DNA from: Bacteroidota bacterium
Lineage (GTDB): Bacteria > Bacteroidota > Bacteroidia > B-17B0 > Aurantibacillaceae
DNA: 64,000 bases
NCBI GenBank assembly: GCA_013288015.1
Contig: JABDCR010000007.1
Location: forward strand, 1-64,000
Reading direction: 5' to 3'
The notes below the pieces were generated by a model, which searched no databases, was not told where the DNA came from, and worked only from the letters and a program-made list of their open reading frames with translations. Below are positions 52,196-54,972 of the stretch, piece after piece; within the stretch, counting starts at the first letter, position 1; each line of letters opens with the position of its first letter. The translations under genes were made by a program, and so were the position numbers.

Positions 52196-53884
52196 ATGCT
52201 TGACTCACCCTTACACGAACATCATTTATTAAGATATAAAGTTGACATTGAGGATAAGCCCATGCGCAGCTTTTCTAAAACGGCTATTGTAAGCTTTTTT
52301 GACGAAAGCGATAAAAAAGTGGTTGTATTTAAGTATGGCGTAATTACGAAAGAAGAGATATTTGAAAAAATAAATAAAGGAGAAGACATGAACCTTAATG
52401 GGGCTTATGTATATAATTTCTCGTTAACCGATTACAGGGTTGATAAAGGCTTGGATGATAGTGTGCTTATTACACTAAAAAATTTCTCGGCCAAAAAGGC
52501 CTTTTTTGATTGCGATATTGTAAATGATTTTACCTACACAAATTTTGAAGGCGATAAAGTAGTTTTTGATTCGGCTATTTTTGGAAACGGAACCACCAAT
52601 TTTAGCAACTCGGTTTTTTGTAATGGCGATGTAAGTTTTAAAAAAACAAAATACGGTAGCGGAAGCACCAATTTTCAGAGTGTAAAATTTGGCGATGGCC
52701 TGGTTGTGTTTAACAACACCAATTTTGGTACAGGTAACCTGTCGTTTGTTGATTGTAATTTCAGTAATGGTAATGTTGATTTTAGGAACACGTATTTTGG
52801 CGATGGGCATGTAGATTTTAAGTTTGCCAAGTTTGCCAGCGGCGATTTAAGTTTTGAAAAAGCAGCCTTTGGTAAAGGAAAAAAAGATTTTAAAAATGTT
52901 GAGTTTGGCGGCGGTAAAATAGATTTCAGACGTGTTGAGTTTAACGATGGCGATGTATCGTTTGACGGAGCTGAGTTTGGCGATGGCAAAGTATCTTTTA
53001 GAAGTGCGCGTTTTGGGCATGGCGAAAAATTATTTACCCAGGCCGATTTTGCCAAAGGCGAGGCTCAGTTTGATTTGGTTGAGTTTGGTTCGGGGTCGGT
53101 AAATTTTAATAAAGCTACCGTAACCGATATTTCGTTTAAGGGTTGCGCGCTTAATTGCTATATTGATTTACGTTTTAACACCTGTCGCACGGTTGGTTTA
53201 AGCAACACCATTGTACGCGATATTTTAGATGTAAAACCCGAAGATGAAAAAGTAGTTATTTCGGTTTTTGATATATCGGGCATGCGCATTTTAGGCCGTA
53301 TGTTTATTGATTGGCGTGCTAACAATGTATATGATTTAATTTATCAGCAAACCGAAACCACCCTTTTCCAAAAGGCAGAGCAGTTTAGAATTTTGAAAGA
53401 GAATTTTAGAAACAATGGGCAGTACGAAGATGAAGATGCTGCTTACTTAGAATTTAAACGCTGCGAGGCCAAAGCAAACTTAAACGCCGCTATTGAAAAA
53501 GATAAAAAAAATGCCCTGTGGGCTTATCCTAATTTTTATTTTCAAAAATATGTGTTTGATTATGTGGGCCGTTATGCTACCGACCCAATACGGGTTTTAT
53601 CAAACATGTTTTTGGCCTTTACGGGTTTTAGTTTTATTTACTATTTTATTACTGAATATTTTCCGAGTTTTGGCACGGTGGCCACAACATTACCACCCGA
53701 GTTACAACACATACATAGTTTTGGTAACTGCGTTTACTATAGTGCTATAACCTTTTTTACCATAGGTTATGGTGATTATTTTGCCGAAGGTTACCTAAAG
53801 CCATTTGCCGCCTTTGAAGGCTTTACAGGGGTGTTTTTAATGAGTTATTTTACGGTTGCTTTTGTAAGGAAGATTTTGAGGTAG
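52196..53884 (+). CDS. 2TM potassium channel with N-terminal 12-residue-repeat beta-solenoid-like domain
   Basis: 16 gapless 12-aa repeats (FGDGKVSFRSAR type) at about aa 117-308; C-terminal TM1, pore helix with TIGYGD selectivity filter and TM2 ending the protein. Confidence 0.88.
   Translation: MLDSPLHEHHLLRYKVDIEDKPMRSFSKTAIVSFFDESDKKVVVFKYGVITKEEIFEKINKGEDMNLNGAYVYNFSLTDYRVDKGLDDSVLITLKNFSAKKAFFDCDIVNDFTYTNFEGDKVVFDSAIFGNGTTNFSNSVFCNGDVSFKKTKYGSGSTNFQSVKFGDGLVVFNNTNFGTGNLSFVDCNFSNGNVDFRNTYFGDGHVDFKFAKFASGDLSFEKAAFGKGKKDFKNVEFGGGKIDFRRVEFNDGDVSFDGAEFGDGKVSFRSARFGHGEKLFTQADFAKGEAQFDLVEFGSGSVNFNKATVTDISFKGCALNCYIDLRFNTCRTVGLSNTIVRDILDVKPEDEKVVISVFDISGMRILGRMFIDWRANNVYDLIYQQTETTLFQKAEQFRILKENFRNNGQYEDEDAAYLEFKRCEAKANLNAAIEKDKKNALWAYPNFYFQKYVFDYVGRYATDPIRVLSNMFLAFTGFSFIYYFITEYFPSFGTVATTLPPELQHIHSFGNCVYYSAITFFTIGYGDYFAEGYLKPFAAFEGFTGVFLMSYFTVAFVRKILR
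52544..53119 (+). repeat. 16 x 36-bp in-frame degenerate coding repeat (12-aa unit)
   Basis: FEGDKVVFDSAI/FGNGTTNFSNSV/FCNGDVSFKKTK/YGSGSTNFQSVK/FGDGLVVFNNTN/FGTGNLSFVDCN/FSNGNVDFRNTY/FGDGHVDFKFAK/FASGDLSFEKAA/FGKGKKDFKNVE/FGGGKIDFRRVE/FNDGDVSFDGAE/FGDGKVSFRSAR/FGHGEKLFTQAD/FAKGEAQFDLVE/FGSGSVNFNKAT. Confidence 0.95.
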
Positions 53885-53885
53885 A

Positions 53886-54224
53886 ATGACAGATAAGAAA
53901 TTAATAAATGCTTGGCAAAAAGCTGCTGTTGACTTAAAATTAAATATACAGACACCTTTTGTTTTAAATAAAATAAACGGTGGAGAAATTAAATGTCTGT
54001 TGCTAATTGAAAATTTTGGCAGTAAAAAAGGAACACTTATTCTTTCTACCGATGACATGGACGACTTCGATGAACCTGAAAAGTACGGTTATTATTGCTC
54101 AGCTTTAAACCCATTTCATTATTCCAAATATAATCGCGACGGTTTTGTAGAGACATTAATTGATTGGGGTTTTTATGGGAAAGAAGATGAAAAGCCAACT
54201 TGGTATAATGGAGTTGTCTATTAG
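53886..54224 (+). CDS. hypothetical small protein
   Basis: 112-aa ORF, start directly after the upstream stop; no family recognised. Confidence 0.55.
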   Translation: MTDKKLINAWQKAAVDLKLNIQTPFVLNKINGGEIKCLLLIENFGSKKGTLILSTDDMDDFDEPEKYGYYCSALNPFHYSKYNRDGFVETLIDWGFYGKEDEKPTWYNGVVY

Positions 54225-54321: not shown

Positions 54322-54972
54322 ATGAACACAAAAACATCTTTTTATTTAATGCACCGTAGCGAGCAAACTAGTTGGTTACGAGAAAACCACCCCAATGCTT
54401 TTTTGTTGCTAACCATTATTGCCGAACGTGCCCGTTGGAACGAAAAAAACTTAACAGGCGGTTTAAAACCTTTGCAATGTGTACTTGGCACCACCGAAAT
54501 ATTATGGAAAGGTTGTACACGCATGCAATTACGAACAGCCATCAGAACCCTAATACGTAACCATCAAATTGTTACCAAGACAACCAAACGTGGAACCGTT
54601 GTAACCCTTATAAATACTGATATAGTAGAGGTTAATATAAATAAAGTTAACCACAAAATAACCAACCAACAACCATCTGAAGGTGAAAATGCAACCACTA
54701 ACCTAAAAGGTTATAAAAAGATAGAAGGATATAACCTCGACCTCCCTCTTTATTTCTCTAATGATGTTATACATGCTTTAGCTATTGAGTTAAAAAAAGG
54801 TGATGCTGAAACTAAACGCTTAACAGAGGAGTTTGTAAAACACTGCGGGGTTTTAAAAACCACTTACTCTAAAAATGCTGCGTTTGCCCTACAGCGAGAT
54901 TTTAAAGATTATGCAGAAACACATCGAGCAACTGAGCGTCTAGTGCCGTATGGTGTTGTGTATTACAAATAA
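54322..54972 (+). CDS. winged-helix protein resembling phage/plasmid replisome-organizer N-terminal domains
   Basis: LGTTEILWKGCTRMQLRTAIRTLIRNHQIVTKTTKRGTVVTLINTDIVE resembles the wHTH + 'TIVNYDKY' arrangement of phage/plasmid replication proteins; weak. Confidence 0.5.
   Translation: MNTKTSFYLMHRSEQTSWLRENHPNAFLLLTIIAERARWNEKNLTGGLKPLQCVLGTTEILWKGCTRMQLRTAIRTLIRNHQIVTKTTKRGTVVTLINTDIVEVNINKVNHKITNQQPSEGENATTNLKGYKKIEGYNLDLPLYFSNDVIHALAIELKKGDAETKRLTEEFVKHCGVLKTTYSKNAAFALQRDFKDYAETHRATERLVPYGVVYYK

Follow-up and report, generated by a model that had tools for sequence, protein, structure and literature searches.

A predicted two-TM K+ channel of Bacteroidota with a probable N-terminal pentapeptide-type beta-solenoid built of 12-residue units

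Introduction

Where the mechanism of a bacterial K+ channel is known, the regulatory domains mostly lie behind the pore. A gene in the window (the whole 64,000-nucleotide stretch of Bacteroidota DNA that was analyzed) raises the question of how a minimal K+ pore might instead be controlled from in front, by a solenoid of sixteen 12-residue repeats, and of what kind of solenoid this is. The initial annotation had argued that the repeats do not fit the pentapeptide class, that they are better explained by a coil like that of the Tenebrio antifreeze protein, and that the architecture as a whole was one it did not recognize, with novelty resting on the repeat period because fusions of pentapeptide repeats with ion channels might already be described. 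The Tenebrio antifreeze fold has about 12 residues per turn, and every 12-mer of such antifreeze proteins contains disulfide cysteines and contributes to a regular face of Thr-x-Thr.

Results

The gene lies on the forward strand and its product divides into the parts listed here. We are highly confident in this overall anatomy.

52196..53884, + strand: whole channel gene, 562 aa, a presumed 2TM K+ channel with an N-terminal beta-solenoid (ORF, Pfam, orthologs)
52196..52543, + strand: N-terminal region and solenoid N-cap, aa 1-116, predicted small alpha/beta (AlphaFold, hydropathy)
52544..53119, + strand: solenoid, aa 117-308, 16 x 12 residues (repeat analysis, model, Pentapeptide_3, Foldseek)
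52796..53011, + strand: solenoid units 8-13, aa 201-272, top-conserved charged surface and candidate docking site (per-unit conservation)
53120..53311, + strand: C-terminal end of the solenoid with irregular coils and cap, aa 309-372 (AlphaFold, conservation)
53312..53584, + strand: helical linker and amphipathic helix into TM1, aa 373-463, conserved, with the motif QFRILKENFRNNGQYEDEDAAYLEFKRCEAKA
53585..53659, + strand: TM1, aa 464-488 (modelled helix 464-488; Kyte-Doolittle peak 467-485)
53720..53776, + strand: pore helix and K+ selectivity filter TIGYGD, aa 509-527 (Ion_trans_2), with the filter at 53759-53776
53795..53881, + strand: TM2 and invariant C-terminus ...AFVRKILR, aa 534-562 (modelled helix 534-561; ortholog alignment)

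The pore module matched the Pfam family Ion_trans_2 at 43.3 bits against a cut-off of 22.5 (E=3.3e-11), and the same family was matched in 26 of 26 close orthologs. The selectivity filter, T522-I-G-Y-G-D527, sits between helices 464-488 and 534-561, and the protein terminates at R562 directly past TM2, with no C-terminal domain and no Pfam or NCBIfam match to an RCK or cNMP domain. The two-TM pore, its abrupt end and the lack of these domains were thus as first described. The product is presumably a 2TM K+ channel that assembles as a tetramer. It shares TM1, pore helix, TxGYGD filter and TM2 with KcsA-type and RCK-gated (MthK/Kch) 2TM channels, but these carry their regulatory domains after TM2, whereas here the regulatory region stands before TM1 and nothing follows TM2.

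Because no signal peptide was seen (the top hydropathy near the N-terminus was 0.44), the hydrophobic peaks lie at 467-485 and 537-561, and basic residues precede TM1 and close TM2, the positive-inside rule would place both the N- and the C-terminus in the cytosol. The solenoid had been taken for the sole large cytosolic domain. A cytosolic location is indeed what this topology predicts, but the solenoid would share it with the alpha/beta region 1-116, for which AlphaFold gave pLDDT values of ~87-96 beyond residue 10, with the cap 309-372 and with the helical linker 373-463.

The genome it comes from contains the channel gene once and has three Ion_trans_2 matches in total. Neighborhood comparison found no conserved neighbor genes around the orthologs, the sole shared neighbor being an upstream rmlD-like gene in 5 nearer relatives, and since no neighbor is conserved, no partner can be named. 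A 112-aa ORF at 53886-54224 (+) begins one base past the channel stop codon; it has no Pfam match and is not kept beside channel orthologs. Further on, at 54322-54972 (+), lies a 216-aa ORF with no Pfam match above cut-off, which clusters only with its own copy.

We then turned to the repeats. Residues 117-308 form an uninterrupted series of sixteen 12-mers, with F at position 1 in 15 of the units and Y in 1, F at position 8 in all 16, G at position 4 in 15 and G at position 2 in 10, in agreement with the pattern originally reported. Self-identity at a lag of 12 was 0.36, while the maximum across all lags from 5 to 30 in 10,000 shuffles was 0.20. The spacing of Phe along the solenoid strictly alternates 7,5,7,5, and for this reason the 12-mer reads as a two-step unit, consisting of one plain pentapeptide step and one that is longer by two residues. 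In the sequence, V6-x-F8 and A11-x-F1 both follow the pentapeptide pattern, with a small residue two places ahead of the core residue, so read, F1-G-x-G-x-V-x-F8 is a pentapeptide step with two additional corner residues.

The solenoid scored 41.6 bits with Pfam Pentapeptide_3, whose cut-off is 27. The match aligned 41 protein residues with 37 profile positions, which is what would be expected if a 12-residue unit overlays an 11-residue one, and it was found at E<=0.01 in just 4 of 26 close orthologs. A pentapeptide-repeat protein has been defined as one with at least 8 contiguous 5-residue repeats (PMC8145042); within the solenoid no two 5-residue Phe steps are consecutive, and the protein falls outside that definition. 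In Pentapeptide_3 proteins from Bacteroidia the register is 10 residues (5+5) or 11 residues (5+6). Among 720 instances of the 7-residue slot across the family, six had 6 residues and one had 8, some of these perhaps being alignment noise. Since the slot shrinks to 6 at single units in several orthologs, the alignment indicates that the 5+7 and 5+6 registers are continuous within the family.

An AlphaFold model of the full protein, made with 26 orthologs as input, gave pLDDT values of ~84-95 over the solenoid. A Foldseek search with the full-length model returned weak, mixed matches to beta-helices and to KCNQ/Kv pores, none at E<0.001, and we therefore modelled the solenoid alone (residues 92-346; pLDDT 95.4, pTM 0.89). 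Against the PDB, this model gave 22 matches at E<0.001, all of the pentapeptide-repeat type: HetL, QnrB1, EfsQnr, MfpA, AlbG, a Nostoc fusion and synthetic Beta1 solenoids. The beta-solenoid originally proposed is therefore supported by prediction, as a beta-helix of the pentapeptide type. TM-scores to solved pentapeptide proteins were low: by query length, none of the listed matches at E<0.001 exceeded 0.37. The top BFVD matches were viral pentapeptide-repeat proteins, a likeness at the level of fold only. In a PDB sequence search the solenoid profile had no match, and the full protein had weak channel-pore matches only. A knotted solenoid described in Brevundimonas is a different, triangular fold (PMC13123833).

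We consider it probable that the solenoid forms a four-sided coil. Two units probably make up one 24-residue coil with four faces, so that 16 units would give about 8 coils. In a sister protein, L060, identity was 0.41 at lag 22 and 0.27 at lag 11, and because the former exceeds the latter, two units per coil are indicated there. L060 is a secreted-looking pentapeptide-type protein encoded by a 274-aa ORF, with a clear 22-residue alternation of FKYxxF and FSNxxF; its two 11-residue units per coil can be read directly from the sequence. In the channel itself, neither charge, conservation nor hydropathy showed a clear coil-level period; for surface charge and conservation only 1 of 21 tests reached p<0.01.

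These results bear directly on the proposal of a solenoid of the Tenebrio antifreeze type, with 12 residues per turn, binding ice, a membrane or a partner. The exact period of 12 is common to both proteins and speaks for it. However, the 22 best structural matches are all four-sided pentapeptide-type solenoids, no insect antifreeze protein was present among the 50 PDB matches listed for the solenoid model, and the two Phe per unit in an i / i-2 pattern (F8 with V6, F1 with A11), which form a large core, require a wider coil. Column composition over the 16 units showed neither a Thr-x-Thr ladder at exposed positions nor regular cysteines, Cys being rare. This reading, already disfavoured, is very unlikely.

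We also examined whether the plan of the protein occurs elsewhere. L049, a protein from another class of the phylum, combines Pentapeptide (PF00805, E=2.8e-12) with Ion_trans_2 (E=1.9e-12). Like the channel, it has an N-terminal pentapeptide solenoid, a helical segment and a 2TM pore with the filter TLGYGD, and it ends after TM2 (...ARKVLRY). It differs in its length of 369 aa and in its short, regular pentapeptide stretch without the 12-residue register, and it matches the channel-family profile only over part of the linker and the pore. The channel architecture thus has a precedent. Three further proteins carry other N-terminal regions on a similar pore (L046, L047 and L050); in L050 a SNAP/TPR-like region (PF14938, E=1.6e-5) stands ahead of a similar pore and pore-end.

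Four proteins from Bacteroidia (L061, L064, L068 and L086) resemble the channel in having a Pentapeptide_3 solenoid, a helical linker, two hydrophobic segments and the ending ...AFRKxx. They differ in their 11-residue (5+6) unit and in lacking the GYGD filter, and because of that absence they are probably not K+ channels; they may be filter-less cousins or non-channel membrane proteins. The family C-terminal profile had no match in them at E<0.01, and for this reason kinship of their membrane part with that of the channel is only suggested. The plan, in which a pentapeptide solenoid is followed by a helical linker and two TM segments that close the protein, is therefore a recurrent one, and the channel family is its 12-residue, K+-filter version.

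A related group of channels with a TLGYGE filter has a degenerate beta-helix as its N-terminal region (L058, together with L051, L053, L054 and L059, which are cut at the locus edge). This group has an additional hydrophobic segment before the pore, and in L058 the beta-helix follows an apparent signal peptide; its solenoid is possibly located in the periplasm.

Given the Pentapeptide_3 match, the Foldseek matches, the 5+5 and 5+6 sister proteins and the canonical repeats on a similar pore, the solenoid as modelled is a variant of the pentapeptide-repeat-type beta-helix and not a new fold, and the supposed misfit with pentapeptide repeats was not confirmed.

At least 45 orthologs were found, with identities of 39-91%. 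A scan of GTDB species genomes yielded 25 full-length orthologs (identity 55-91%), nearly all from metagenome-assembled genomes. Of these, 24 are labelled as Bacteroidota, with varying names, and one only as "bacterium". Within the class Bacteroidia, 26 of 396 genomes (~6%, own genome included) carry a family member; beyond these carriers, a 62-aa fragment occurs in one genome, and in three others the match is confined to the pore. A wider sample of the phylum gave no more full-length members, the other matches spanning the pore region and its flank only. A plasmid search returned mostly Streptomyces pentapeptide proteins, which align chiefly over the repeat region. Among the searches made, we found no characterized relative of the family.

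The gene tree is mostly coherent by family, the exceptions being f38 and f6, which fall within the f1 group, and f17, which is split. Because of this pattern, the history was likely one of descent with losses and some transfers. Values of dN/dS against the two closest relatives (L002 and L003) were 0.04-0.05, with synonymous sites near saturation, which we read as strong purifying selection. Solenoid units matched the same-numbered unit of a distant ortholog at 0.24-0.42 and other units at 0.16-0.20 on average. As same-numbered units match best across distant orthologs, the array is old and is not undergoing reshuffling.

It could be argued from the patchy occurrence among relatives that the protein is an anti-phage or toxin-like effector whose pore depolarizes the cell on command, and a deregulated pore can be toxic. 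Against this, there was no PADLOC match and no conserved neighborhood or defence island, the tree is mostly family-coherent, the filter is K+-selective and purifying selection is strong. We consider such a role highly improbable.

The geometry of the protein is fixed. In 45 of 45 orthologs the solenoid is 190-192 aa long, the filter conforms to T(I/V)G(Y/F)G(D/E), and the chain always stops at the equivalent of R562, which closes the motif (S/A/G)YF(T/S)VAF(V/M)RK(I/V)LR. The constant solenoid length and constant C-terminus therefore indicate that geometry matters. Conservation was highest in TM2 (0.85), followed by the filter region (0.76), the linker 373-463 (0.69), the cap (0.62), TM1 (0.51) and the outer loop (0.41). 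That the linker and TM2 outscore TM1 and the outer loop is what would be expected if a cytosolic coupling path were under selection.

Within the solenoid, conservation at exposed positions was 0.75-0.79 in units 10-12, compared with 0.45-0.6 in most other units. The charged residues of units 8-13 are D207, K229, D231, K233, E236, D243, R246, D253, E260 and K265, and all of these from K229 to E260 lie in the stretch of units 10-12. Because the conserved, charged, exposed positions cluster there, the simplest reading is that units 8-13 are a local candidate docking site on a rigid rod, the motion of which would be passed to the pore by the linker. A DNA-mimic role as in MfpA was rejected, the net charge of the solenoid being -3.7 on average with a range of -13 to +5.

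The same patch would suit a solenoid that itself senses a small ligand or ion: a metabolite, nucleotide or ion would bind there, and the solenoid would signal to the pore as the N-terminal counterpart of an RCK or cNMP domain. The acidic and basic residues conserved locally at units 8-13 are compatible with this, as is a gene that stands by itself, with no partner conserved beside it. Yet no known ligand-binding motif was found, and the roles of pentapeptide-repeat proteins are mostly protein-protein or scaffold roles (PMC8145042, and in part general knowledge), which leaves a ligand sensor rather improbable.

The main rival to a docking site that controls the pore is a solenoid with no gating role at all, serving as an anchor or spacer for localization, as a clustering scaffold or in folding and assembly, on a pore that is constitutive or modulated by voltage or lipid. 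Pentapeptide-repeat proteins act mostly as binding scaffolds (PMC8145042), a constant length of 16 units suits a spacer, and a pore that stops at TM2 has no C-terminal lever. We nevertheless regard a passive rod as unlikely, though less so than a ligand sensor, as conservation of the linker and of the TM2 end is among the highest in the protein, although a mere anchor would have no use for it, and the conserved patch is local and not distributed along the rod.

Discussion

The channel is a fusion of a pentapeptide-type solenoid with a 2TM K+ channel, a known architecture with a new repeat variant. The solenoid resembles pentapeptide-repeat proteins (PF00805, PF13576; HetL, QnrB1, MfpA, AlbG) in its Phe core, where a small residue stands two positions ahead of the Phe, in alternate steps of exactly 5, and in its fold class according to the model and Foldseek; it departs from them in that every second step is 7, the unit is 12, the coil is probably 24 residues compared with 20, and it is fused to a channel. 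We found no literature on pentapeptide-repeat ion channels in a search that covered few subscription journals, and channels are unmentioned in a 2021 review of pentapeptide repeats.

Our best explanation is that docking on the cytosolic solenoid controls gating of the channel, and we put its probability at roughly one half. It builds on the anatomy, on the fold class given by the model and on the observed conservation; the tetramer, the topology, the 24 residues per coil, the gating and any binding partner are inferred. Each subunit of the presumed tetramer would have its two termini in the cytosol and carry a rigid, right-handed pentapeptide-type beta-solenoid ahead of TM1, in which every second corner is lengthened by two residues to give the 12-residue unit and a pair of units would give one coil. 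This solenoid would be a docking or sensing arm whose charged patch, at units 8-13, would be bound by a protein partner, a neighboring solenoid or a ligand. Through the helical linker 373-463 and the amphipathic helix ahead of TM1, the resulting motion would reach TM1 as well as the invariant end of TM2, and the inner gate would open or close upon it. A more specific version, which we offer tentatively and consider rather less likely, is a class of K+ channel not yet described, with four 16-unit solenoids arranged in the cytosol as a ring or as a set of arms, each of 8 coils of 24 residues (a variant of the pentapeptide helix that is as yet unsolved), with no C-terminal gating domain and with partner binding that pulls on TM1 and the TM2 end.

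The family is noteworthy for its fixed geometry and its N-terminal regulatory region, not for its fold, and the repeats suggest that a regular 5+7 register can be accommodated by the pentapeptide helix. With a rigid, length-locked solenoid before the pore and no domain of any kind behind it, the family would be a clean system for the control of a minimal pore by an N-terminal rod.
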